Source: a virus. From it: 35,468 nucleotides of DNA. Below, piece by piece: positions 9,358-22,610 of the stretch; the first letter of the stretch is position 1; every line of letters begins with the position of its first letter. Below the pieces are notes generated by a model. The model did no database searches, was not told the DNA's origin, and was given only the letters and a program-made list of their open reading frames with translations. The position numbers and the translations under genes are program-made. Location of the stretch: positions 1 through 35,468 of the IMG/VR virus record IMGVR_UViG_3300042452_000116. One strand, given 5' to 3'.

Positions 9358-11676
9358 TTATCCTAATCTTGCCGCTCTGTTAATACGGCGTATTCTTTCT
9401 TGTGAGTTAGTTACGTCACTTTCAATAACATAAGCGCGATTTGTTACATTTCCCATTTCTTGAATAGTTGTTGAATCTAATTGCGTTCTTGTATTTACTA
9501 ATGGTGCTGCGGGTGCAATTGGAGCATTTGCAGGTTGACCAATAGCTTGTGTTGTTACACCACCACCCCCAGGAATTTTAATTGAAGCAATTTGTTTAAC
9601 ACGCGCGATACCTGATAATACCGCAGGTGCAGCCATCAAATAAGGATATGCAGGATTCGCAATTGTTATAGGGTTTTTTGCAGCTTGCCTAAAGATTGTT
9701 GATGCCGAAGTAAAAGTATCAATTGTTGCTTGTGCTATTGCTAATGCTTTTCCAGCTGCTGTATCTCTACCAGCTAATTCCGATAACCCTGATAAAACAC
9801 CACTTGCTGATTGTGCAAGTTGTATTTTATTTTGATATACTTCTTCGTCTAATGCCATTTCAGCATTATCCAATTCTTTTTTTCGTGCTAAATATGCATT
9901 TCTATCAATTATCCCTTTATTGTAATTTTCTTCATTTATCCTTTGTTGTTCTTGTATTGCAAATTGTCTTATTTCAATTTCTTTAGTTACATCGTTTTGT
10001 AGATTTTGTAAATTTAGTAAACGAAGTTCATCAACTTTAAATTGAAAAGAATTTAATTGCGCTAATGCAAGTTGTTCTTTTTCTTGAGCAAAAGAAGCAT
10101 CAATATTTTTATCAATTTCGTTTCTCTCTTTTTTTCTTTCAAAATTAGCTTCATCCGTAATCTGTTGTAATTCTCTTAATTTTTCTTGACGCTTTTTTTC
10201 ATCTTCTAATTCCTTATCGAAATCTTTTTTTCTTTGCTCTGCCGCCTTATCCGATGCCTGTTTATTGATATTTTGTATTGATAATTGAAAACCTGCGCGC
10301 TGGTTTTTTAACTGTAATAATTGATTATCTAATTCTTTTATCGTCTTTTGTCCTTCTTCTTCAACTCCTTTCGGGTCAAAAACTAATTTAGCAATACCAC
10401 CAAATACCTTTTCTTCTAATCCGAAATCTTTCCCTAATGCCTTGCCTACATAGTCAACTGCTTTCAATAATGCCGTAATTGGTACAGTCAAAAATTTTAG
10501 TATGCCCTCTAAAATTTCTTTATTTCTTTTAGATGCTTCAATTTGTCCTTTTAAAGTTATTTGTTGTTGCTTTATACTTTCTTCTGTCGCAGCAATTACT
10601 TGGTCAGTTTGTTTGATTTTAATATCTAAAATCTCTTTTTCACTTTTTCCTTGTAACTTTAAAATATTTTCTTGACCGCCTATTGCATTTAACTTTTCCT
10701 TTTCGGCTTCTAAATTTGCTTGTGTTTTTTTGTTAAGTTCGTTTTGTTCTTCACTTACCCCGCTTACAGCTGCTTTTATTTCATCCCAATATGCAACTAA
10801 TGCGCCAACTGCAATAACAATAGCACCGATACCTGTTGAACCAATAGCAAGACGAATAGCTTTGAAAGCATCAACAACAACAACCTTTAATCGTGCAAAA
10901 TCTTTAGCACTATCAGTTATCGCACTTAACCCTTGCGATAAAGCAAGTGCCGATTGTACTTTCACAAGTGTCTTTTGTAAATCTTCACTTTCTTCACCAA
11001 CCAAACCAATAGCACCTTGCACGGCAGCAATACCACCAGCAGCAGCACTCAGCGCACCAGCAAACGCTTGAAACTTTTTTCCTGGGTCAAACAATTGTGC
11101 CGTTTCTGCTGCTTCTTGTACTGCATCCTTTAATCCTGCAACTTTTTTTGCCGCTGCAATTGCTTCGGCTGAATAATCACCAAATTCTTGTTGTGCTTTA
11201 ATTAATTCAAGATTAGCTTCTTTCAGTTGTTGTTTAATAGAGCCAACTGATTTATTTGCAGTATCGCCATCTAATTTTATACTTTTATCCGATAGTTCGC
11301 TAACGCTTTGATTCAGTTCATCAATCTTTGCTTTTGCATCGATAGCTTCTTTAGAATATTCGCCAAAGTTTATTTTGGCATTATCTAATTCAATATTAGC
11401 TTTATTAATTTTGTCTTTAATATCACTAAAGGCTTGTGATGCTTGTTTACCATCAAAAGTTATTTTCTTACCTGTAGCTTGTTCAACTGCGGTTTTTATT
11501 TCATTAACTTTTTTAGCAGCCGTTTCTGCTTCCTTAGAATATTGACCAAAGTTATCTTCTGCCTTTACTAATTCAGCGTTAGCTTCCATTAGTAGGTCTT
11601 TCATTTCGCCAATAGTATTGACAACTTTATCTTGTCCTTCAATCTGTATCTTAAAACCAATTAATTCTTGTGCCAT
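9358..11676 (-). CDS. Tape measure protein (772 aa)
   Basis: Sets tail length and helps DNA passage in siphoviruses. The first 200 residues carry three copies of a 61-residue unit with ELxxAxxxFGxYSxEA (starting near 31, 92 and 153). Next come Ala/Gly-rich hydrophobic segments (residues ~205-300, with FAGALSAAAGGIAAVQGAIGLVG and GSTGIGAIVIAVGALVAYW), a second hydrophobic segment near 390-410, long charged coiled coils (residues ~470-600, KKDFDKELEDEKKRQEKLREL), and a C-terminal Ala/Pro region with APANAPIAPAAPLVN. This is the classic plan of a tape measure. From the usual relation of about 1.5 angstrom per residue, the tail would be near 110 nm; this is an estimate only. It overlaps the 711-aa gene by one base. 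Confidence 0.85.
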   Translation of the reverse strand: MAQELIGFKIQIEGQDKVVNTIGEMKDLLMEANAELVKAEDNFGQYSKEAETAAKKVNEIKTAVEQATGKKITFDGKQASQAFSDIKDKINKANIELDNAKINFGEYSKEAIDAKAKIDELNQSVSELSDKSIKLDGDTANKSVGSIKQQLKEANLELIKAQQEFGDYSAEAIAAAKKVAGLKDAVQEAAETAQLFDPGKKFQAFAGALSAAAGGIAAVQGAIGLVGEESEDLQKTLVKVQSALALSQGLSAITDSAKDFARLKVVVVDAFKAIRLAIGSTGIGAIVIAVGALVAYWDEIKAAVSGVSEEQNELNKKTQANLEAEKEKLNAIGGQENILKLQGKSEKEILDIKIKQTDQVIAATEESIKQQQITLKGQIEASKRNKEILEGILKFLTVPITALLKAVDYVGKALGKDFGLEEKVFGGIAKLVFDPKGVEEEGQKTIKELDNQLLQLKNQRAGFQLSIQNINKQASDKAAEQRKKDFDKELEDEKKRQEKLRELQQITDEANFERKKERNEIDKNIDASFAQEKEQLALAQLNSFQFKVDELRLLNLQNLQNDVTKEIEIRQFAIQEQQRINEENYNKGIIDRNAYLARKKELDNAEMALDEEVYQNKIQLAQSASGVLSGLSELAGRDTAAGKALAIAQATIDTFTSASTIFRQAAKNPITIANPAYPYLMAAPAVLSGIARVKQIASIKIPGGGGVTTQAIGQPANAPIAPAAPLVNTRTQLDSTTIQEMGNVTNRAYVIESDVTNSQERIRRINRAARLG
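11077..11676 (-). repeat. Threefold 61-residue repeat at the tape measure N-terminus
   Basis: Three units with the same spacing begin ANAELVKAEDNFGQYSKEA, ANIELDNAKINFGEYSKEA and ANLELIKAQQEFGDYSAEA at residues 32, 93 and 154, each followed by a K-x-DG / I-K-x-DG turn. They are diverged at DNA level, so the duplication is old. Confidence 0.8.
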
Positions 11677-13811
11677 TATTCGTATGTTAATTCAATTACT
11701 TTTAAAAATTCGCATTTCGTAGAGTTAGGCACGGAAGGATTGTAGTCAATAACTTTATTTAATCGCCATAGTGAGCCATCGATATAAATATGTTTTGAAA
11801 AATCAAGTGAGAAAATATCGGTTAACTTTAAATAAATATAGCACGTCAATAATTTGCTATCCTTATCCGTTATTTCAGCAACGTATGAACTCCAAAACAC
11901 GTTATACATATTAGCCGTAGGGTATTGATTTGTTAGCGTGTAATAAAGTTCTTTTGGTACTCCAAAATTCAAATCACTTGTTGGTGTATCTGGATTGTCT
12001 AAGTGACCACCCCAACCATAGGTCGTAAGTGCAGAACCTACATTACCGCCAGAATTTCTAATATGCCAACTGGAAACACCTGTTATTTTACGCACTTGGA
12101 AAATACGGATATTGCTTTCCATTGTATCTTCCGATTGTGTATTTTGTGTATTTGTTAGTTTAAAGATTGTAGGAAAGCGTTTATCCTCGCCTTGATAACT
12201 TACGATAGGAGTAGGACTGAAAATAAGTTCAGCGGTTTGCTTATCGGTACTAAATTCAAAACCAGTATCCTCTATATAGTCGCCGTATGTTTGTGCATAC
12301 CTTTTACTGTAATCTTCATTATAAAAGTCGTTATCTGGTTTGTATTTGTACTCAAAATACCTGCCATTAAGTTCACCCATTGGAGTAAGCTTAATTGCTT
12401 TTGCTCTATCGACTTTATACGTCCAATCTAAATTTTGTGTTGCTTCATCATCTAATAAAAGAAGATTTTGATTATCAATTAAAAGTTCTTCCTCTAAGTC
12501 GTTTATTTGTAAGAAATGAAATGCACTTTGGTAAAAGTCAACATAAGGTTCAATCTTTAAATGCTTTTCCTTTACGCTATCTTCTATTATGTAAAGGTTC
12601 ATTAACTTAATAACGGATGCAACAAAATCTTTTTGAAATATACCTTGCGGCAAAGTATCGTTAATGGCTATCGTATCGTTATAACCTAAGTTAACATATT
12701 GCGGTGTAGCAGAAGTAAAGTTTAATGAACCTTGGTCAATTCTAAATTGTTCTACATCGGTATTAACATTTACAATTAATGTATTATTTAATGCAAATGT
12801 TATATTTGGAATATCAATTGTAATATTAAAAGGATTACCGCCAACAGCATCGCCTATATAATTATAAATTACATTTCCATCTTTAATTACTTCAATAGAA
12901 AATATAGTACCCGAAGTTACAATTTCACCTAATAAAGTAAATGTTAATGTACCAGTAAAATTTGTAGCTGAATTATATGTAAAGATTGTATTAAAGGTAT
13001 TGATAGTAAAACTACCAAGAGTTTGAGGTGTCCATACAAGGTAATTTGAATTACTATATGTATCTACATTCGCCGCTGCTAATAACCCAAGTGAACTATA
13101 TTTTTTTAATAATTTTTGATTATTAGGAATAACTAATCGCTTGAAAAAATCAGTATTAAAGAAATTGCTTTCCCAAGTGTAACCAGCGTTCGTGATAATT
13201 TTATCCATATACTCACGTACGAACAAAGCAGGGCGAAAAGCGGTAAAGTGCCAATTCTTTTTATTAGAATGTGATACTTGCCCGTAATCAACTAACGGAT
13301 AGTAATAACCCATTCCACTTGCCGTGTTTCCAGATGCTTGCTCCCACGAATTAACAATGTTATCATAATTCCAAACGTGGTCGTACTGCGAAAAATCTAA
13401 GTTTTCAAGTTTCTTCGTTCCCAACGCGTTTACAAAACCACCCAACTCACCAAATACAACACATTCGTATTCTATCGTACCTCTATCGATTGTGATTTCT
13501 AAAAGTCGAATAACACCTTTGAAGATTTGTATTTTATCTACATAGATAACACAAGCTGCGGATTTGAACGCGTTAAAGTTGTAACCCACATTATCCTGCA
13601 AAGGGTTATGGAAGTTGGCGCTACTGAACTCGAATATATGACCGAATAATTTGTTGTTAACTGCATTTCCGGGGAGTATGATAGTTTTAGAAAAGTTAGT
13701 ATTACGCGCAGCAAAATCTGTAATATCGTCAATAGCATACGTAAACTCGGAAGATAAATCTTGACTTAAATCTAACCTATTATCCTCTATGTAAATTTCG
13801 GTATTTATCAT
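11676..13811 (-). CDS. Large tail-tip / baseplate-like protein (711 aa)
   Basis: Starts MINTEIYIEDNRLDLSQDLSSEFTYAIDDITDFAARNTNFSKTIILPGN, a pattern I associate with tail-tip proteins of Bacteroidetes siphophages. The N-terminal third is strand-rich (CVIYVDKIQIFKGVIRLLEITIDRGTIEYECVVFG) and resembles distal-tail or hub domains. The middle is a beta-rich Asn/Thr-rich region, and the C-terminal part has YIYLKLTDIFSLDFSKHIYIDGSLWRLNKVIDYNPS. It lies beside the tape measure and the 402-aa protein, with which it overlaps by 4 bases. The exact role (hub or receptor-binding) is not determined from the sequence. Confidence 0.6.
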   Translation of the reverse strand: MINTEIYIEDNRLDLSQDLSSEFTYAIDDITDFAARNTNFSKTIILPGNAVNNKLFGHIFEFSSANFHNPLQDNVGYNFNAFKSAACVIYVDKIQIFKGVIRLLEITIDRGTIEYECVVFGELGGFVNALGTKKLENLDFSQYDHVWNYDNIVNSWEQASGNTASGMGYYYPLVDYGQVSHSNKKNWHFTAFRPALFVREYMDKIITNAGYTWESNFFNTDFFKRLVIPNNQKLLKKYSSLGLLAAANVDTYSNSNYLVWTPQTLGSFTINTFNTIFTYNSATNFTGTLTFTLLGEIVTSGTIFSIEVIKDGNVIYNYIGDAVGGNPFNITIDIPNITFALNNTLIVNVNTDVEQFRIDQGSLNFTSATPQYVNLGYNDTIAINDTLPQGIFQKDFVASVIKLMNLYIIEDSVKEKHLKIEPYVDFYQSAFHFLQINDLEEELLIDNQNLLLLDDEATQNLDWTYKVDRAKAIKLTPMGELNGRYFEYKYKPDNDFYNEDYSKRYAQTYGDYIEDTGFEFSTDKQTAELIFSPTPIVSYQGEDKRFPTIFKLTNTQNTQSEDTMESNIRIFQVRKITGVSSWHIRNSGGNVGSALTTYGWGGHLDNPDTPTSDLNFGVPKELYYTLTNQYPTANMYNVFWSSYVAEITDKDSKLLTCYIYLKLTDIFSLDFSKHIYIDGSLWRLNKVIDYNPSVPNSTKCEFLKVIELTYE

Positions 13812-15016
13812 CGATATTGTGAATTGATTTGATACGCTAAATCTATATCTAATTCTAAATTAAATGTTTTATCGGCAAAGCGTTTCTTTTCTGTCCAAGT
13901 GGTTGTTTGAATGTTTATCGGTACGAATTGATTGTTGCGTTCTAAATAAACTTCTGGCGACGCGATTAACTCTTTTAGCCAATTGTAATCGGTAAAGTTT
14001 ACCCAATCGCTGATTAGCTTGTAAGTTATTTTTTGTTTTGTACTAAAAGGAATTGAACCGCCATACAATCTACCATAGGCATCAACCATATCCATTGCCG
14101 TTGTAGCTGCTTCGTATTCATATTGTAAACGCTCAAATGAATTGCGCTCTACGTTCCTTGTTTGCCTGTTTACTAACGTAAAATTAAATGTTTCATACCC
14201 ACCAACGGCGTTTAAGAAATGCAAAGGAATAATATCGTATTGCGTACAATTTAAAGTAACTCGGATAACGTCGGTTTGCACTCCTGCAATCTTTGCCTTT
14301 ACATCGTAGTACGTTGTGGCATCGCTAATAACTGAAGAACCTAAATAAGTATTTATACCGCGCGGTGAAATATCCAATAAGGCAAAATCTTCCCACGATT
14401 GCGTTCCGCCTGTGTAGTTTGTACTTGTTGTTCCGTTCACACGCGTAATATCTAAAGAAAGGCTTTTAGGTGTGTTTTCTGCATCGCTCAAAAACGAAGT
14501 GTACAATCTGCCTGTATTAATTAAGCTTTTTGGAAACGTAACTTGAGTTTTATCTCTGTTTGTAAGATAATAGCCAGAATAAGCAGTATCGTATCTTGCA
14601 GGCGAAAGAAAAGCATCCGAAGTAGGATTGTAAAGATAATCTTGAATGTAATTGTAACCAAACGCACTTTGTTCTTCTAAGTTCGTATAAGTAGTGCCGC
14701 CGTAATCTTCGCCAAACTTTAATTCATACTCAACGTAAATATCGTTGCCTGTATAAGAGATTGCGTTATTAGTGCTGATATTCGGCTTAAAATAAGAGTT
14801 CCAATAGTTTCTAATTATTGGTGCTACGTTAAAAATTCCCTTTTCGGTACTCGGTTGCGGAAATGATTTTAACCTTGCTACTAAATTTGTATTTATGTAC
14901 ACATCGCACACGTATTTGAAATTCGGTACTGCTCTGTTAGTTGAGGTTACAACAAAATAAAGCGCGCTATGCATCGAACTATAATTCGCAGGTGTACTAT
15001 TTATTGTTATTGCCAT
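13808..15016 (-). CDS. Tail protein, unknown (402 aa)
   Basis: Not a named family to me. It starts MAITINSTPANYSSMHSALYFVVTSTNRAVPNFKYVCDVYINTNLVARLKSFPQPS, then FNVAPIIRNYW, a long beta-strand pattern and GGYETFNFTLVNRQTRNVERNSFERLQYEYEAA. The IPLHFLNAVGGYETFNF segment is typical of a protein that many Bacteroidetes phages place just before the large tail-tip protein. It ends 4 bases into the next gene, so both are translated from one message. A role in the tail tip or as an adhesin is inference. Confidence 0.6.
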   Translation of the reverse strand: MAITINSTPANYSSMHSALYFVVTSTNRAVPNFKYVCDVYINTNLVARLKSFPQPSTEKGIFNVAPIIRNYWNSYFKPNISTNNAISYTGNDIYVEYELKFGEDYGGTTYTNLEEQSAFGYNYIQDYLYNPTSDAFLSPARYDTAYSGYYLTNRDKTQVTFPKSLINTGRLYTSFLSDAENTPKSLSLDITRVNGTTSTNYTGGTQSWEDFALLDISPRGINTYLGSSVISDATTYYDVKAKIAGVQTDVIRVTLNCTQYDIIPLHFLNAVGGYETFNFTLVNRQTRNVERNSFERLQYEYEAATTAMDMVDAYGRLYGGSIPFSTKQKITYKLISDWVNFTDYNWLKELIASPEVYLERNNQFVPINIQTTTWTEKKRFADKTFNLELDIDLAYQINSQYR

Positions 15017-15710
15017 TTAATTGTATTGCTTTGATATTTAACGTGATTTCTTTTCCTATAATCTTTGATACAGAACTGATGAATTGCTCGTTGAACGAAT
15101 ATTGTATTGCATTATCAAAATATCCTGTTTTCTTTAATCCTTTCTTTTTTATGTTTACCGCTACGGCGTAAGCTAAACTTTTTTGATTGTTGGCTTGGCT
15201 TACCATCTTAGATAGCGATTGCCGTTTGGCTTGTCGCTTCGTTATGGCTACGTCGCCCTTTATATTGTTTCTTTTTATCCAATCAAAAATATTTTGCTGC
15301 ATTTTTTTTCCAATCAAAATGCCGCCTTTCTTATTTAATATTTTTTTAAACTTATATGGCGAAGTGCTATTCTTGCTTACTGAATTATCGTATCCTTGTA
15401 CGCCTTTGTTTACAAAGTCATAATACTTTGATGCTGGCGAACCTTTCGGATACCCAATATCGATACTTAATTGATTGCCATTTCTAATAACTGCGCTTTG
15501 TTCTAATTCATCACTTAAAGCGCCTGTATCGACTTTACCCTGCGCTTCTAAATTTTCCTGAACCTTTAATACAAAGTTCGCTGCACTAATCGTTAAATAA
15601 TATTCTAAGGAATTTAATTTAGTAGCTTTTTCAAAAAAACTTTTATCCTGTCCTAATTGGTCAAGGAAAGATAAAACCTCGGCTTGTAATTGTTTAATAC
15701 TTTTTGCCAT
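14997..15710 (-). CDS. Minor tail / tail completion-like protein (237 aa)
   Basis: A basic, Lys/Asn-rich protein. Residues 1-60 are helical (IKQLQAEVLSFLDQLGQ). A short strand pattern follows (VDTGALSDELEQSAVIRNGNQLSIDIGYPKGSPASKYYDFVNKGVQG), which looks like the HK97 gp10 type of tail-completion protein (a VDTG, YYDFVNKG pattern). The rest is Lys-rich with KKGLKKTGYFDNAI. It starts 16 bases inside the tail chaperone end, so translation is coupled. Assignment by pattern; gp10-like is moderately likely. Confidence 0.55.
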   Translation of the reverse strand: MAKSIKQLQAEVLSFLDQLGQDKSFFEKATKLNSLEYYLTISAANFVLKVQENLEAQGKVDTGALSDELEQSAVIRNGNQLSIDIGYPKGSPASKYYDFVNKGVQGYDNSVSKNSTSPYKFKKILNKKGGILIGKKMQQNIFDWIKRNNIKGDVAITKRQAKRQSLSKMVSQANNQKSLAYAVAVNIKKKGLKKTGYFDNAIQYSFNEQFISSVSKIIGKEITLNIKAIQLNGNNNK

Positions 15711-15957
15711 ACGCTTTCCTTAATTGCTCGCTTTCGTATTCGCCTTTCGCCTTGAGGTAAGCAAGGTCATTAAGGTACTGAAGTGTAGGGATTTCATATG
15801 CTTGTTCCAGCGTGACCTTTTCGAGTGTAGCAACCAACTCGGTTTGGTATATCCATCCATAGTATCGCATAAAGTTTGATACACCGCCTCGGCTTGATAA
15901 CGGCTCATCTTCTTCGCCATTTCCGCTATCAAATAATCCTTCGAACTCTTTATCCAA
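15694..15957 (-). CDS. Tail assembly chaperone, minus-one frame C-terminal extension
   Basis: This is not a stand-alone gene but probably the C-terminal part of a fused chaperone. The frame is open from the T9 run at 15975, where it continues LSSIQKLDKEFEGLF, and ends at 15694. It has a credible helical composition: RYYGWIYQTELVATLEKVTLEQAYEIPTLQYLNDLAYLKAK and a charged end EYESEQLRKAYGKKY. Joining after residue ~160 of the upstream frame gives about 253 residues. The alternatives are programmed minus-one slippage, as in lambda G-GT, or a base-count error in the homopolymer. Confidence 0.65.
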   Translation of the reverse strand: MDKEFEGLFDSGNGEEDEPLSSRGGVSNFMRYYGWIYQTELVATLEKVTLEQAYEIPTLQYLNDLAYLKAKGEYESEQLRKAYGKKY

Positions 15958-16454
15958 TTTTTGTATACTTGATAAAAAAAAACCACACTTCCGAGAATTG
16001 CGGTGATAGGTGCTTCGAGCATATCCTGCGCATAATCCTCGTGCCTACTCGCATCGTACTTATCTAACCTCCACCCGAGCAAGGTTTTCTTCATCGGCAT
16101 AACCATACAGGCAGCAATCTTATGTAAGTTGCCGTTTACGTCTTGCCCGAAATGCTTTGTTTCAATATAACGCGCTGCGGGTATCTTACGCACGTCATAA
16201 ATGCACTTATACCTCTTGCCGTTTATTTTTATGTACTTTTGTGGCTCGGGTTTAATCTCTTCGTGGATAAAACTAATCGACTTTAACAAAGGGTTTAAAT
16301 CTTTAATCGGTAAGCTATCGATTTCATTTTCAGTCATACGCATACAAATCGCGGCTGATTGAATTGCGATATCTAATTCGTTTAACTCCTTAGATTTTAG
16401 AAACAACTCATTGAGTTGCTGCCATTGAAATACGGATATGTCTTTCCACGTCAT
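15720..16454 (-). CDS. Tail assembly chaperone, zero-frame product (244 aa; N-terminal 160 residues common to both frames)
   Basis: Residues 1-160 are common to both reading options. They are helical with VFQWQQLNELFLKSKELNELDIAIQSAAICM and a short YIKINGKRYKCIYDVRKIPAARYIETKHF strand part, as in tail assembly chaperones of siphoviruses. At 15974-15982 (plus coordinates) a run of nine T on the minus strand lies in frame as GTT TTT TTT TAT. After it the zero frame continues for 84 codons, but that part (HSKRSRWNKHMKSLHFSTL) looks like random translation, while the minus-one frame looks like real protein. The product after the run is therefore uncertain. Confidence 0.65.
   Translation of the reverse strand: MTWKDISVFQWQQLNELFLKSKELNELDIAIQSAAICMRMTENEIDSLPIKDLNPLLKSISFIHEEIKPEPQKYIKINGKRYKCIYDVRKIPAARYIETKHFGQDVNGNLHKIAACMVMPMKKTLLGWRLDKYDASRHEDYAQDMLEAPITAILGSVVFFYQVYKNWIKSSKDYLIAEMAKKMSRYQAEAVYQTLCDTMDGYTKPSWLLHSKRSRWNKHMKSLHFSTLMTLLTSRRKANTKASN
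15974..15982 (-). other. Candidate minus-one slippery site (T9 run)
   Basis: Nine consecutive T on the minus strand, in frame as G-TT TTT TTT T-AT. This contains the heptamer T TTT TTT that fits X XXY YYZ. Both frames are open on both sides of the run. A downstream stimulatory structure is not obvious by eye. Confidence 0.6.
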
Positions 16455-16554
16455 ACCTATAAATAGATTTTGTTTTGAAATTGTCTTTGAATTATATGAA
16501 AAGGAAATAAGTCAAAATATCCCCTTTTTGAGTTGTATAGTAATCCTTGGTAAC

Positions 16555-17706
16555 TTAGGCAAAAGAATATTTGCCTTGCCCTGTATTTCGCGTGTAATGC
16601 TGCCACGCTAACGCTAACGCCATCACGCAATCGTCGTGAAAGCCTTGCGGTGCTGAATACTTAACCCCTGTTGCGGTGTACTGATATTCAAATATTTCAA
16701 GTTCTTCCGTGATATGCCCTTGTGGAAAGGTTATCTTTCTTTGCTGAATAGCCGACGCCAAACCCTCCATCAATTGCTGCTTTGAGGTCGAAGTGAACTT
16801 AAACCCTGTTACTGGTAAGCCATCACGTTGCAAATCTTCGAAGATAGGGTCGCCCGCGCCTGTACTGTCAATCAGCGTGGGTACTTTGGGTAGCTGGTTT
16901 ATGACTTGCTTGGTTTGTCGCCAATCCTTTTGGAAACGCTCGAAATGACACACCGAGCCATTCCTATCCAATCCAATAATCACGGTATAGTCAACCGACT
17001 TCGCTAAATCGATACCAAACGCAATAGGAGCCTCATTAGTCGCCTCAAATGTACATTGCTTGATGTAGGTACTCCCGAACGGATTAGCCGCGTTTTCGGC
17101 AGGATTAGCCATATATTCCTGTTCGAATACAACCTCGGGTAGCTGGGTTCGGGCGTCGTCTATTTCGTTCTTATCCAAATGCGGGTTATCGTAGGTTGTG
17201 AACTTGAAAGATTGCCAATCGGGTTCGCCGTTCTTTAAGAATAGGGAATAAAAGAAGTTCTTGCCCTTGGGTGTTGAAATGAATAGCGCACGCCCTTTGT
17301 AGTCGGTTAAGGTAGGGCGAATAGAGTTAAGCCATCCGTTTTCTAAGTCGGGGATGAAAGAGGCTTCGTCAATAACTCCAAAGTGAAATTTCCTACCTCG
17401 AAGGTTATCTAAGCGTTCGCCTGTAAAAAAGTAAACCGCACCGCCATTCGGGAACTTAATTGATAATTCAGATTTGTTGGCTTCGAAAGGAACGGCTTTG
17501 GCTAATTGGTCAAAAAACACGCGCGCCAAATTATAGGTAGGTGTAACGTAGAATACTTGCTGCCCTTGTAAGGCATTGATAATGATTTCTATTTGTGAAA
17601 GTTCTGACTTACCGAAGCGTCTGCCAGCCATTACAACGCGAAACCTTGATGAACTATCAAGGATTACTTGTTGGTTTTTATGTGGTGTTGGCAGTTCAAT
17701 TCTCAT
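16555..17706 (-). CDS. terL: Terminase large subunit (383 aa)
   Basis: Packages DNA into the prohead. The ATPase has Walker A AGRRFGKS at residues 27-34, Walker B GVIDE with catalytic D113-E114, and the coupling motif STP at 144-146. The RNase H-like nuclease has D233 (GIDLAKS), D280 (LIDSTG) and D358-D359 (HDDCVMALALAW). 383 residues is short for the family but all core motifs are present; the adenine-binding and hinge parts are compact. It overlaps the small subunit gene by 4 bases (ATGA). A 100-base gap follows before the tail chaperone and may hold a promoter; I cannot assign one. Confidence 0.92.
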   Translation of the reverse strand: MRIELPTPHKNQQVILDSSSRFRVVMAGRRFGKSELSQIEIIINALQGQQVFYVTPTYNLARVFFDQLAKAVPFEANKSELSIKFPNGGAVYFFTGERLDNLRGRKFHFGVIDEASFIPDLENGWLNSIRPTLTDYKGRALFISTPKGKNFFYSLFLKNGEPDWQSFKFTTYDNPHLDKNEIDDARTQLPEVVFEQEYMANPAENAANPFGSTYIKQCTFEATNEAPIAFGIDLAKSVDYTVIIGLDRNGSVCHFERFQKDWRQTKQVINQLPKVPTLIDSTGAGDPIFEDLQRDGLPVTGFKFTSTSKQQLMEGLASAIQQRKITFPQGHITEELEIFEYQYTATGVKYSAPQGFHDDCVMALALAWQHYTRNTGQGKYSFA

Positions 17707-18085: not shown

Positions 18086-18859
18086 TTATTCTAAGCCTTT
18101 GAATGCTTTTAAGGGGTAAAACACTAAGCTATTTCTATACCCGCCCTCTTTGGTTGGGATGATAGGTGTTACTCCGTGAACATTTCGCCAAGCGGGATAA
18201 ACCAGCATTGAATTGTCGCGGCTATCCATTGTTGCACCATAATCGGGTACGGTAGTGTTACCCCCTGTTGCATTTTCTTTCTTTGCAATTATTACATTTA
18301 CACATCCTTCTAAATTTCCTGCGTCGCGATGAAAGGGTGCAGGTATATTGAAGTTTGAGATAGAACTTGTAAATAGTTTTCCAAAACGCCATTTCTTAGG
18401 AATATTAGTTTCTATAATGTTTAATTGCCTTTCGTAAATATTTGGTGTGATTTCTTTTACAAGTTGCTCTGCTTCGCTACACGCCAATAGCATTGCTTTG
18501 ATGAATGTTTGTGCGGTTTTCACTTGGTGTACGCTTGACATTGATGGATAAGGTCTGCGCATATGTGGTTTAGGCGGGCAAGAACCAATGATTGTGCTAT
18601 ATTGTTTTACTTCAGCTTCAGCGTTTCTTAATCCCGAAGAACGACGCATTTCGCTTTTCGGAACGCGTTCGGATAGCAATTCGTTATTGGCTATCTCGAT
18701 GTATTGTTTTAACTTCCCACCGATTTCCCTAATGTAAAAACCTATCGGTTCGTTCTCATAATAGAAAATAGCATCTTCGGTGATATTTGGTTCTATAGTT
18801 CCACAAATATCGCCAATTTGAACATTGTGTTGTTGTTGAATTAAATCAATTCTTTCCAT
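18086..18859 (-). CDS. TET/JBP-family 2-oxoglutarate/Fe(II) dioxygenase (257 aa)
   Basis: Predicted to oxidise the methyl group of a modified pyrimidine in DNA (5-methylcytosine to 5-hydroxymethylcytosine in the TET family). The C-terminal half holds the double-stranded beta-helix signature: H177 and D179 (PFHRDAG), H228 (AWRNVHGVTP) and R242 for 2-oxoglutarate, with a GGNTTVPDYG turn and FYPL end. The spacing and the H-R-D form match phage TET/JBP enzymes. The N-terminal half (residues 1-170) is not recognised; it has a YYENEPIGFYIREIGG strand and a MSSVHQVKTAQTFIKAMLLA helix. It overlaps the TAGT gene by 14 bases and follows it in the operon, just before terminase. The active site appears intact; substrate identity is inferred. 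Confidence 0.85.
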   Translation of the reverse strand: MERIDLIQQQHNVQIGDICGTIEPNITEDAIFYYENEPIGFYIREIGGKLKQYIEIANNELLSERVPKSEMRRSSGLRNAEAEVKQYSTIIGSCPPKPHMRRPYPSMSSVHQVKTAQTFIKAMLLACSEAEQLVKEITPNIYERQLNIIETNIPKKWRFGKLFTSSISNFNIPAPFHRDAGNLEGCVNVIIAKKENATGGNTTVPDYGATMDSRDNSMLVYPAWRNVHGVTPIIPTKEGGYRNSLVFYPLKAFKGLE

Positions 18860-19682
18860 ATAATTTATTTCTTAATGTTTTAATATTTGTATCGGATGCA
18901 AATATTCTAATATGCGTTCCTTTTTCCCATCCTGTTTTGTTAGCGAAATTTACAATAGGATTGTATTTTCGAACCAAATACGAGCATTCTTTTCTCCTTT
19001 GTGATAATCTTTCTTCTGTTGAGCCAAAACCACCAGCAGTATATCTTTTGAAATATGGTACTGTCCAATTCAATACTAAGACATTATTATGTTGTAGAAT
19101 ATTTTCTGCAGTCCATGCAACATCATCAATTAGTTGAGCGTTTGTATCAAATTTATAGTGTGATTTTTTCACTAACCAAAATCTGCCATCTGCTAAACCT
19201 CGTGTGATAAATTTATTTCTTAAATTCATCGGATTGTCGTGCAACCCGAAGCCTATCAAATGTATTTTATTCAACTCTGCTAAATCTATCAATTTAGGAA
19301 ATATCTCAAACATTTCTTTTAAGCTGATAGTGTTTTCTTTTTTTAACCTATATTTTTTTTGATTTGAAAAGTTTATATCCAATGTATTTGTTCTGCTACA
19401 AATTAGTTCCTTTGGGTATGAATATATTTTTTGAAAATCATCACACATGAAAACCGCCCATTCTCCTGTATTCATCATTTCTAAAGCCGTGTTTCTTTGA
19501 TATGCTAACCCTTTGGCGTTATTAGTTATTATAGGAGTTCCATGCAAAGTATTGCCGTTTCTAAATTTTTCATAATCAGTTTCGTTATGTATTAAAACGT
19601 TATGCGCAATATTATTTTCATATAAGGCTTTCGAAGTTGTAGCAGTTTCATATCTATTATAGAAAAATGTAAAAACTTTCAT
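18846..19682 (-). CDS. TET-associated glycosyltransferase, TAGT / GREB1-like (278 aa)
   Basis: Predicted to transfer a sugar to the hydroxymethyl base made by the TET-like enzyme. I place the start at 19682, where ATG overlaps the ParB-N stop by an ATGA; a longer frame to 19751 has a poor N-terminus. GT-A features: an N-terminal FTFFYNR strand and TTSKALYENNIAHN helix, AYQRNTAL at 60-67, an acidic pair DD at 81-82, GFGLHDNPMNLRNKFITRGLADGRFWLVKKS at 144-174, DD at 186-187 and YFKRYTAGGFGSTEERLSQRRKEC at 210-233, then NKTGWEKGTHIRI. This series matches the GREB1/TAGT family known beside TET/JBP genes. Acceptor and sugar donor cannot be told from the sequence. Confidence 0.8.
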   Translation of the reverse strand: MKVFTFFYNRYETATTSKALYENNIAHNVLIHNETDYEKFRNGNTLHGTPIITNNAKGLAYQRNTALEMMNTGEWAVFMCDDFQKIYSYPKELICSRTNTLDINFSNQKKYRLKKENTISLKEMFEIFPKLIDLAELNKIHLIGFGLHDNPMNLRNKFITRGLADGRFWLVKKSHYKFDTNAQLIDDVAWTAENILQHNNVLVLNWTVPYFKRYTAGGFGSTEERLSQRRKECSYLVRKYNPIVNFANKTGWEKGTHIRIFASDTNIKTLRNKLYGKN

Positions 19683-20263
19683 AGCTTTTCTTTTTCTGCT
19701 TTCAATTTCTCGATTAGAAAACCACCTATATATAATTTTTGTTCGCGCCAAAACTTTACAAGTTCTTGCGCCTCTTCATAATGCTCAGGTTCAAATTCAA
19801 TTTGTATTGCTTTCCTAACTGAACCTGCCATATCATCCAGTTGTTCAGTAATATCAACTTCGTCTAATATAGAGTAATCTAATTCTTTTGCCGTTTCAAA
19901 GTTTGGTAAATCAATTCCCCAATTTTCAAGTTTATCATCATCCCATTCATTTGCAAGATTATCCCAATCCCAAAATCCGAAAGCCACATTGTCTTTAATG
20001 ATAAATTCCTTTTGTTGTTCTTCGGTAAGGTTTGATGCTTTTATGATTGGTATTTCTTTTAATCCCGCTTCTAAGCACGCTTTTAGACGCATATTGCCAC
20101 CCAAAACAATCATATCGTCATTGACTACGATAGGGCGTATCTCAAGCATTTGCGGGAACTCTTGGATTGACTTAACAAGTTTTTGGAACTTGTCGTCTTT
20201 AATAACTCTTGGGTTATTAGGGTTGGTTTGTACTTTGCTTATCGCAATTGTTTGTATTTTCAT
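19679..20263 (-). CDS. ParB N-terminal domain protein (194 aa)
   Basis: Residues 1-80 carry the ParB/Sulfiredoxin-like fold: IAISKVQTNPNNPRVI, then IRPIVVNDDMIVLGGNMRLKACLEAGLKEIPII, where GGNMR at 55-59 stands for the ParB GExR box. A second part, EFIIKDNVAFGFWDWDNLANEWDDDKLENWG, is a motif I know from ParB-N proteins linked to DNA methylases in Bacteroidetes phages. The C-terminal part is an acidic-to-basic segment with EFEPEHYEEAQELVKFWREQ. No methylase catalytic motifs (DPPY, ENV or PCQ) are present. The gene overlaps its neighbours by 4 bases on both sides (GT2-like and TAGT), so it belongs to the modification operon. Confidence 0.75.
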   Translation of the reverse strand: MKIQTIAISKVQTNPNNPRVIKDDKFQKLVKSIQEFPQMLEIRPIVVNDDMIVLGGNMRLKACLEAGLKEIPIIKASNLTEEQQKEFIIKDNVAFGFWDWDNLANEWDDDKLENWGIDLPNFETAKELDYSILDEVDITEQLDDMAGSVRKAIQIEFEPEHYEEAQELVKFWREQKLYIGGFLIEKLKAEKEKL

Positions 20264-20880
20264 AAAAAATAACTATTTGTAGATTGATATTTTCCTGTTT
20301 CTTGCGCCCATAGTTTATCGCACTTCATTAAGCCTTCGTCTTTCATTCTTCTATATGGAGTATCTTGCCCAACGTCGTGACCGATATGCTCGGCGGTTAA
20401 CCCGCTTAAATAGTAATTCAAATGTCCTGTCTGTTGTAATCTAAAAGAATAATCTCTATCCTGCATTCCATAAGGGTCGTACACCTCGTTGAACTTTCCT
20501 ATTGTTTCAATTGCTTTCATAGGTATTAATACATTACCGAATACCGCATCGGCTTTGTGAATAGGAATCCCATCTACATAGGTTCTTTCTCCGAGACCTT
20601 CGACGCAATGAATACCACACATTCCTGTATTTGGAATTGTAAGCATAGCCTCAACCATCCGTTGCAGCCAATTTTCAGGCATTAAGATATCGTTTGCCAT
20701 TGTTACAATAGCATCGTACTGATAGCTTCTACTTATGCCGTAATTGATAGCACGCGAGATACCGAGCATTTCAACTTCAATAAAGTCAAAATGAAAACCC
20801 GCATTGGCAAAGTTTCTGTTCTTTACTCTTTGCGTGTGTTCTTTGCGTTCGTAGTTTAATAAGATTACATTAACGAGCAT
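20260..20880 (-). CDS. Family 2-like (GT-A) glycosyltransferase (206 aa)
   Basis: A nucleotide-sugar-dependent glycosyltransferase. The N-terminus VNVILLNYERKEHTQRVKNR, the SRAINYGISRSYQYDAIVTMANDILMPENWLQRMVEAM segment (the ND-x pair takes the place of the DxD metal motif) and FGNVLIPMKAIETIGKFNEVYDPYGMQDRDYSFRLQQTG (an acceptor and catalytic-base region, QDRDY) follow the order of GT2. The start is set at the ATG at 20880; a TTG upstream at 20889 would add three residues. It overlaps the acyltransferase gene by 11 bases. In the modification operon it may extend or attach the sugar; surface-sugar modification is the alternative. Confidence 0.75.
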   Translation of the reverse strand: MLVNVILLNYERKEHTQRVKNRNFANAGFHFDFIEVEMLGISRAINYGISRSYQYDAIVTMANDILMPENWLQRMVEAMLTIPNTGMCGIHCVEGLGERTYVDGIPIHKADAVFGNVLIPMKAIETIGKFNEVYDPYGMQDRDYSFRLQQTGHLNYYLSGLTAEHIGHDVGQDTPYRRMKDEGLMKCDKLWAQETGKYQSTNSYFL

Positions 20881-21346
20881 TGCTTCCAATTTCTTTTACT
20901 GGCACGCCAGCGTATTTGTGATTAGGTTGTAATATCGATTTTTTTCCTACAAACGCTGAAGCACCAATCATACACCCCTCGGGTATTCTTATCTTTTGGT
21001 GCAGCACCGCATTAAGCCCTATGTTGCAATTCCTTTCAATGATAGTATGCCCCCCGACCTTTGCGCCACAACTTAATGTAACATTTTCAGCTAAAATAGC
21101 ATCGTGACCGACGTGCGCGCCTTTCATAAGATAACAACCTTTGCCAATGATGGTTCTTCGTTGCGTTCCGCTATCTACCGTGACCAATCCTGTTAATCTT
21201 GTGCCACTCATAATCGTAACTAAACCCTCGCAATGCTCGTATCCTTTCCACTCTGCGGGTGCGCCAATAATACAATAAGGACCTATATAAACATCGGGTT
21301 CGATAATTACATTCGGGTAAATGATTGCAGTAGGGTGTATATACAT
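20870..21346 (-). CDS. Left-handed beta-helix (hexapeptide-repeat) acyltransferase (158 aa)
   Basis: Contains a series of hexapeptide turns, IHPTAIIYPNVIIEPDVYIGPYCIIGAPAE, IIGKGCYLMKGAHVGHDAILAENVTLSCGAKVGGHTIIERNCNIGLNAVLHQKIRIPEGCMIG and ends with KYAGVPVKEIG. Order and the KGAHVGHD segment (the usual catalytic His in LpxA-like enzymes) point to an acyl or acetyl transferase acting on a sugar or amino-sugar. It overlaps the upstream 54-aa gene by one base (TAATG) and the GT2-like gene by 11. Possible role: acylation of the sugar put on DNA, or of a nucleotide-sugar. No other gene in the window makes nucleotide sugars. Confidence 0.75.
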   Translation of the reverse strand: MYIHPTAIIYPNVIIEPDVYIGPYCIIGAPAEWKGYEHCEGLVTIMSGTRLTGLVTVDSGTQRRTIIGKGCYLMKGAHVGHDAILAENVTLSCGAKVGGHTIIERNCNIGLNAVLHQKIRIPEGCMIGASAFVGKKSILQPNHKYAGVPVKEIGSNAR

Positions 21347-21510
21347 TAGTTCATCAATTTAAGATAGTCAATTTCAACACTTTCCTTGTCCTCGATAGTT
21401 TCTTTCCTTTCGATTGTGTTTATTATACTTCTTATGAGCCTTTCCTTTTCTTCGCTTCCCAAATGTTTGCTTTCCAATAGTTCCAGATTTAGCCATAACT
21501 CAACGACCAT
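21346..21510 (-). CDS. Small helical protein (54 aa)
   Basis: Starts at ATG 21510 (MVVELWLNLELLESKHLG). The long upstream extension in the same frame (basic, KQKRKPKKHTRRYSH) is better explained as the out-of-frame reading of the 45-aa gene that overlaps it. The protein is charged and helical (EEKERLIRSIINTIERKET). It overlaps the 45-aa gene by 11 bases and the acyltransferase start by one base. No function recognised. Confidence 0.5.
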   Translation of the reverse strand: MVVELWLNLELLESKHLGSEEKERLIRSIINTIERKETIEDKESVEIDYLKLMN

Positions 21511-21637
21511 TTTTCTTTTTAAATTTTCCCTGTGCGAGTATCGCCTTGTATGCTTTTTCGGCTTTCTCTTTTGTTTCAAATACACACGCACCGCTACCGA
21601 TACGCCACTTGCCGTTTTTACATTTTAATACTGGCAT
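21500..21637 (-). CDS. Small Cys-containing protein (45 aa)
   Basis: Starts MPVLKCKNGKWRIGSGACVFETKEKAEKAYKAILAQ. I recognise this form (two Cys, IGSGAC, then a KA-x-AYKA helix) as a recurrent small protein of Bacteroidetes phages without known function. It begins 20 bases before the end of the GT-B gene and ends overlapping the 54-aa gene. Composition favours this frame over the longer frame that overlaps it. Confidence 0.65.
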   Translation of the reverse strand: MPVLKCKNGKWRIGSGACVFETKEKAEKAYKAILAQGKFKKKNGR

Positions 21638-22610
21638 AAAGTTGTTTTCTTTTTTCGTTTACTTTAGTTAGGTCATAGTTTGCAGTTGCCCATTCGTACA
21701 ACTCCAATCCCTTTTCCTGCCTATAAATAGCATCTTGCGTGATTTTTTTAATATGTTTATACCAATCGGTCTGTTTATCAACCGCTATGATAGGCGCACC
21801 TTTATACGGATGCACGTTACTTACAATGGCTGGTATCTTCTTACAAGCTGATTCCAATAACTTTAAATTCGATTTCATTGAATTAAACGTAGTACATAAA
21901 AGCGGAACGATTGTACAATCAGCATCGTTATAGAAGTTCATATACTCCGTTACAGGTAAAGCAGCGCGTATATGCCCTAATTTAAACCCGCAAGTAAAGG
22001 ATTGTATCATATTGTGCCATACGTGGGCATAATACTTTTCGTCAGGGTTAAAGCCACAAAAACAAAACTCAACTCGGTTTTTTAATTCCAAAACTCTTTT
22101 TAATGGATTGCGCAAAATGGCTACGTCTTTTTCATGTGTTATACTACCCGCGTAAACAAAACGAACTTTCTCGCTTTCTGTTCTTATATCGGTAAATTGG
22201 TCGTTGCCAAAAGGTAGAGCGTTCGGTAAAATCTCTACATTCTTATTAAACGGCAAAATCATATCGCGCAACCGCTCGTGTGTCGTAGTAACTAAATCGG
22301 CTGCCTTTATGTGTTCAATGATTGTTTCAGTTGGGTAGTTTTTAATAATGTGGTGGCTATCCAATACCCAATAATCGTCAATATCTACTATTAATTTAAA
22401 GCCGTATTTTTCTCTGTACTCTAAAATGGTTTGTAATTCAACACCTAAAATAAAGCGATTGATTAAAAGAATATCGTAGTTATCTTTTAAGTTTTCTTCG
22501 CTTAATATGTCTGTAAATAGAGCATACGTTTTTGGTAGATAGTAAATAGGTAGCATCAACCTATGATATCCGACACCTGAATTTTGTTGCGTTATTGCGA
22601 GTATTCTCAT
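21618..22610 (-). CDS. GT-B glycosyltransferase, GT4-like (330 aa)
   Basis: A two-domain glycosyltransferase. The N-terminal part has MRILAITQQNSGVGYHRLMLPIYYL, NYDILLINRF and FKLIVDIDDYWVL. The C-terminal nucleotide-sugar domain has VRFVYAGSITHEKDVAIL, FCFCGFNPDE and YNDADCTIVPL followed by SNLKLLESACKKIPAIVSNVHPY, which is the GT4-like signature with the acidic residue in LLESACKK. The retaining type is implied by the family. It overlaps the 106-aa gene by 4 bases and lies in the modification operon. Acceptor unknown. Confidence 0.75.
   Translation of the reverse strand: MRILAITQQNSGVGYHRLMLPIYYLPKTYALFTDILSEENLKDNYDILLINRFILGVELQTILEYREKYGFKLIVDIDDYWVLDSHHIIKNYPTETIIEHIKAADLVTTTHERLRDMILPFNKNVEILPNALPFGNDQFTDIRTESEKVRFVYAGSITHEKDVAILRNPLKRVLELKNRVEFCFCGFNPDEKYYAHVWHNMIQSFTCGFKLGHIRAALPVTEYMNFYNDADCTIVPLLCTTFNSMKSNLKLLESACKKIPAIVSNVHPYKGAPIIAVDKQTDWYKHIKKITQDAIYRQEKGLELYEWATANYDLTKVNEKRKQLYASIKM

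Follow-up and report, generated by a model that had tools for sequence, protein, structure and literature searches.

A conserved T9 run and alternative, overlapping C-termini predicted for a structural gene of Bacteroidota phages

Introduction

Frameshifting in phage tail assembly genes is well known. The window analysed here, an entire viral record of 35,468 bases, carries next to its large terminase gene an open reading frame that contains a run of nine T residues: a second stretch of protein-like sequence continues from the run in the minus-one frame, and the original frame also stays open for a long distance beyond it. This arrangement raises the question of whether one gene makes two products by slippage at the run and, if so, what the two C-termini are, which machinery slips and what the products do.

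Results

Organization of the gene

The gene lies on the minus strand, so that its run reads A9 on the plus strand and T9 on the coding strand (GTG GTT TTT TTT TAT CAA). The coordinates, run length, direction and 84 open codons past the run given in the initial annotation were all confirmed on the window sequence (Table 1). Unshifted decoding would yield a 244-aa product composed of a shared 160-aa N-terminal domain and a helical C-terminal part. A slip back by one on the U UUU UUU heptamer within T9 would instead join the 160 shared residues to 93 minus-one residues, giving a fused product of 253 aa that ends in the minus-one C-terminal domain. The minus-one extension starts with LSSIQKLDKEFEGLFD..., continues through an acidic linker into the C-terminal domain (SNFMRYYGWIYQTELVA...LNDLAYLKAK) and terminates at the stop codon 15694-15696, while the 0-frame stop lies 254 nt after the slip. 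When the minus-one frame was shuffled synonymously, the 0-frame stayed open for at least 85 codons in 5e-5 of the trials.

Table 1. Features of the frameshift gene and its neighbours in the window
Feature	Position	Strand	Description
0-frame ORF	15720..16454	(-)	244 aa, ATG at 16454
N-terminal domain, residues 1-160 of the 0-frame ORF		(-)	common to both predicted products
Residues 161 to about 206 of the 0-frame ORF		(-)	conserved helical C-terminal part, predicted unshifted product only
Residues about 207-244 of the 0-frame ORF		(-)	unconstrained tail
T9 slippery run, GTT TTT TTT T	15974..15982	(-)	U UUU UUU in 0-frame phase; place and phase kept in all relatives reaching the run
Minus-one-frame extension	15694..15975	(-)	93 aa; predicted fused product 253 aa
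Dual-coding stretch	15837..15974	(-)	conserved in both frames over about 46 codons, with synonymous change suppressed in each
Large terminase gene, immediately upstream	16555..17706	(-)	phrog_2, 1.7e-51
Next gene, 237 aa	14997..15710	(-)	weak HK97-gp10-like (tail completion) match, E 0.095, below cut-off
Tape measure protein gene, three genes downstream	9358..11676	(-)	phrog_24676, 1.8e-15

A family of three clades with an invariant run

The window's own gene, used as a DNA and as a protein query, gave no match in the phage collection. Among its best 80 viral relatives, and leaving aside one weak-edge locus (L062), T9, or T10 in one subclade in which both frames are intact, was found wherever the locus reached the run. 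A second clade was entered through a locus in a Chitinophagaceae metagenome-assembled genome (L082, 48% identity), which led to 80 further viral loci, and T9 was present in 76 of the 76 loci examined there. The third clade surrounds the isolate Nonlabens (Persicivirga) phage P12024S, which was found solely via a fold match, and most of its members show 25-33% identity. It also carries T9 in the same phase, with T10 at a single locus where the extra T comes from the preceding TTT codon. In P12024S itself the two halves carry separate annotations as hypothetical proteins (gp38 and gp39) and belong to the unnamed families phrog_32199 and phrog_38404. Profile comparison joined the window and P12024S clades through both halves (E 1.8e-17 and 4.5e-10), and on these profiles the two clades are one family. 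Relatives down to about 20-30% identity keep T9 (T10 in the one subclade) with the phase unchanged. The Chitinophagaceae locus and the Persicivirga isolate point to hosts in the Bacteroidota. Flavobacterium phage 6H gave a weak fold match and lacks T9 at that place. A scan with the C-terminal domain alone returned at least 547 relatives, some of them on the same contigs as the best 80 viral relatives of the window gene, with T9 in all 73 that were examined. One 63,203-base contig (IMGVR_UViG_3300043436_001856) holds two copies of the gene region about 31 kb apart (L119 and L134), perhaps representing a concatemer or two phages.

Codon usage at the site is equally rigid. All of the 161 distinct loci use TTT for both Phe codons of the run, and Phe codons elsewhere in the gene are divided between 169 TTC and 145 TTT (163 and 174 in the P12024S clade). 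Long runs are otherwise scarce: 158 of the 162 coding-strand runs of nine or more T in 1.14 Mb of family loci are this very site.

Homopolymers are a classic place for sequencing errors, and the initial annotation had raised the possibility that the run was miscounted by one base; one continuous frame would then really be present, unless the gene is a pseudogene. Two sequences agree with such a reading. A record in the family has T10 in this context, which would unite both halves in one frame (L424, on the same record as L299), and a 243-aa uncultured-phage protein, BFVD A0A6J7WJY4, matches the N-terminal and minus-one domains in a single chain. The former lies about 7 nt from a contig end and is probably an assembly-edge error; the latter represents a natural in-frame fusion unless its run length is in error. 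Against them, at least 119 occurrences of the site context in one collection have T9, this one has T10 and none in this gene has T8, the lone T8 context match being a sequence unrelated to the frameshift gene. The isolate carries the same run, and both frames are under purifying selection, as described below. Run length and both frames recur unchanged across independent samples and hundreds of contigs; the counts rule out a miscounted run, and we regard a miscount or a pseudogene as extremely improbable. Comparison with relatives, which the initial annotation had proposed as a check, placed a conserved slippery run at the same position in every relative that reaches it, and its suggestion of a programmed -1 change at T9 is strongly supported by the invariant run, its phase and the two conserved frames.

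Dual coding past the run

The 0-frame beyond the run had been dismissed as nonsense. For its first 46 codons or so this description proved wrong, since the frame there encodes a constrained, conserved protein; it stood for the remainder, which looks unconstrained as protein. The sequence after the run (VFFYQVY.NWIK.SKDYLI.EMM.K..TRYQAE..YQ.LC..MDG) is recognisable in loci at about 50% identity. In an AlphaFold model of the 0-frame product (18 sequences; mean pLDDT 84.6, pTM 0.77), the last shared helix is predicted to run on into the post-run residues and to be followed by two more confident helices, up to residue 198. The C-terminal half modelled alone gave a weak prediction (pLDDT 58).

Synonymous variation was examined at four-fold degenerate sites. 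In the minus-one frame, differences amounted to 0.025 in the first ~46 codons against 0.151 after codon 52 (independent sequence pairs of the window's clade, p 2e-9), and to 0.052 in the overlap against 0.187 after it in the independent second clade (p 8e-9). The 0-frame behaved in the same manner, with 0.126 in the overlap against 0.245 upstream in the window's clade (p 1e-5) and 0.082 against 0.188 in the second clade (p 4e-8). The overlap of the P12024S clade is also depleted, with 8/231 for the minus-one frame and 15/212 for the 0-frame against 148/708 upstream; the 1/86 seen after the overlap makes the four-fold comparison with that stretch uninformative. Position-by-position rates indicate that the 0-frame dominates over the minus-one acidic linker and the minus-one frame dominates later. 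Because four-fold changes are suppressed in both frames, and in view of these rates, about 46 codons code in both frames, as judged from the substitution pattern.

Beyond the end of protein conservation the 0-frame of the window remains open for about 38 further codons (15836-15720) that are unconstrained as protein. Its stop position is nearly constant in close relatives and very variable in other clades, at 50-257 nt after the run. Synonymous shuffling puts the chance of the frame staying open past the conserved stretch at about 2e-4, so that it is open for longer than expected.

One start or two

The minus-one domain could in principle be a separate protein made from an internal start, with no fusion, as gp39 of P12024S is annotated. 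That annotation begins at a minus-one-frame ATG, and several relatives have an ATG there (NFM). The ATG column is not conserved, however, being occupied by M, L, I or T, so that no conserved start codon exists, and conservation of the minus-one frame begins at the run itself (FFLS..LDK.F.GLF). TTC, which would be permitted if no slip were required, is never used at the run. We therefore consider a separate internal start very unlikely. Read upstream from the run, the frame of the C-terminal domain closes after 2-27 codons. The conservation of both halves across clades bears out the initial view that the 0-frame before the run and the minus-one frame after it are both real protein, and the comparative evidence shows that the run, its phase and both frames are under selection. 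A single gene that would give two isoforms from one start, with alternative and overlapping C-termini, is strongly supported by these comparisons.

Putative role in tail assembly

Genes of the G/GT type are flanked by those for the major tail protein and the tape measure protein, usually adjoining the latter; their products bind the tape measure and tail tube proteins and are absent from virions, and the ratio between them matters. In the gene described here two ORFs overlap, and the later one, in the -1 frame, is joined to the first at a slippery sequence, as in that type. Its position differs: it directly follows the large terminase gene and lies three genes away from the tape measure gene; no firm identification of a major tail gene was made in the window. 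No Pfam or PHROG profile of a known chaperone family matched, and sequence comparison with the PDB gave no match to a solved structure. VIA-align with the 0-frame model returned short helical matches only (Z at most 3.4), with no chaperone in the fold list, which does not exclude one. In Foldseek one weak match, at rank 43 (E 0.72), carries the name of a chaperone.

These results make it conceivable that the gene encodes some other frameshifted structural protein, for example a minor extended virion protein such as T7 10B, since it is not beside the tape measure gene and shows no detected chaperone homology. No capsid-like match was obtained, however; the neighbours are the terminase and tail-completion or tail genes, and an unsystematic look between the window's tail genes noticed no second chaperone-like frameshift gene. 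On balance we regard a different structural role as unlikely. The assignment to GpG/GpGT-type tail chaperones in the initial annotation fits the mode of working but is not proven. Because the gene is not beside the tape measure gene and matched no known chaperone family or fold, we have not filed it as a proven member; it would work like a G/GT chaperone, with membership unproven, and its job is likely to be helping to build the phage tail. Our preferred reading, which we consider quite probable, is that of a Bacteroidota siphophage structural gene that would give two products from one start by a -1 slip, acting like lambda gpG/gpGT. By analogy with that pair, the major, unshifted form would coat or bind the tape measure protein, and the minor, fused form would recruit the tail tube protein.

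The gene order in 9358-17706 (terminase, frameshift gene, gp10-like gene, two large genes and tape measure, with protease, capsid and portal genes further downstream) is unusual for a siphophage. It is kept in L082 to the point where that locus ends, at the protease, and partly in P12024S. The gp10-like gene begins with an ATG that overlaps the minus-one frame at its end. In the stretch separating the terminase from a sigma-factor-like gene (18846-22610), ORFs were read by eye as glycosyltransferases, a hexapeptide acyltransferase and a ParB-like protein, and by eye L082 has ORFs similar to this set. Long low-complexity ORFs at 811-2586 lie on the plus strand, opposite to the structural genes, and are possibly the antisense reading of a repetitive protein.

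Ribosome or RNA polymerase

Programmed -1 ribosomal frameshifting is marked by an X XXY YYZ heptamer in the 0-frame phase and by a stimulatory RNA structure or an upstream SD-like element. U UUU UUU is present in the 0-frame phase in every locus, and the preceding codon is always xTT. No recurrent RNA structure was detected downstream of the run by z-scores in 26 loci at several offsets. The frame might alternatively be changed by RNA polymerase, adding a U at T9. Genes that work in this way have nine or more A or T in a sense-strand run, and their mRNA is expected to gain or lose U there. In favour of such transcriptional slippage, beside the lack of a recurrent structure, the sense strand always has at least nine T; the codon after Phe-Phe always begins with T (TAT, TGT, TTA or TAC, and TGC in L284), and the coding strand has hardly any other T9 runs. 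In many bacteria transcription slips on runs of nine A or T, and such runs are selected against (PMC1088944; PMC5009743). On the other hand, the ribosomal heptamer is always there in the correct phase, and the phage tail chaperone shifts known so far have been described as ribosomal (PMC5009743). The T after the heptamer is not decisive, because the minus-one frame conserves Leu or Phe there. We regard the two mechanisms as nearly even, with slippage by RNA polymerase at slightly less than an even chance.

Discussion

No earlier description of this gene was found in the open-access literature searched. What sets the gene apart from known -1 tail genes is the length of its dual-coding stretch, together with the T9 signal and the large size of the family. 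DNA that appears to code for both C-termini at once is present in at least several hundred phages, in a phylum whose phages are poorly understood, and among them is a cultured isolate whose gene has been split into two 'hypothetical proteins'; the present results give a means to annotate such genes. A broader reading would see in this very large unannotated phage family tail-assembly isoforms with two C-termini drawn from the same ~46 codons, their ratio being set by RNA polymerase slippage at T9 and not by ribosomal frameshifting followed at once by a stop; we put it forward tentatively, as somewhat less probable than its opposite. The gene offers a clean system for telling ribosomal from transcriptional slippage, and the isolate P12024S makes the matter testable.

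In the known systems compared here, the unshifted form ends soon after the slip, whereas here each of the two predicted forms has a conserved C-terminal part to itself. As in lambda gpG/gpGT (PMC5009743), two overlapping frames would be connected by -1 slippage towards the end of a gene in the tail region, and a short and a fused form would have a common N-terminal domain, the minus-one part being a small C-terminal domain. Unlike lambda, slippage would take place on T9 or T10, the gene comes after that for the large terminase, homology is undetectable and the unshifted form runs 50-257 nt past the run with about 46 codons conserved; because the 0-frame past the run is conserved protein for that length, each form would have a C-terminal part of its own. 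The frameshifted chaperone genes of actinobacteriophages (PRFect/SEA-PHAGES set) similarly use a programmed -1 shift to make two chaperone isoforms, and two isoforms are predicted here, yet the distance from the slip to the 0-frame stop averages 26 nt in that set (PMC10885494) against 254 nt in the window. Predictors that weigh stop distance would likely miss the present gene, and this difference explains why such genes would escape them. Bacterial genes with 9A/9T slippage, namely IS elements, Thermus dnaX and Shigella mxiE, also join two frames at a sense-strand run of nine identical A or T (PMC1088944), whereas here there is an in-phase ribosomal heptamer too, in a gene of a phage structural region with two conserved C-termini. 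P12024S gp38/gp39 is a true homologue, sharing the position and phase of T9 as well as the minus-one domain; its 0-frame extension is shorter than that of the window, the stop lying 77 nt after the run in the near-identical locus L164.
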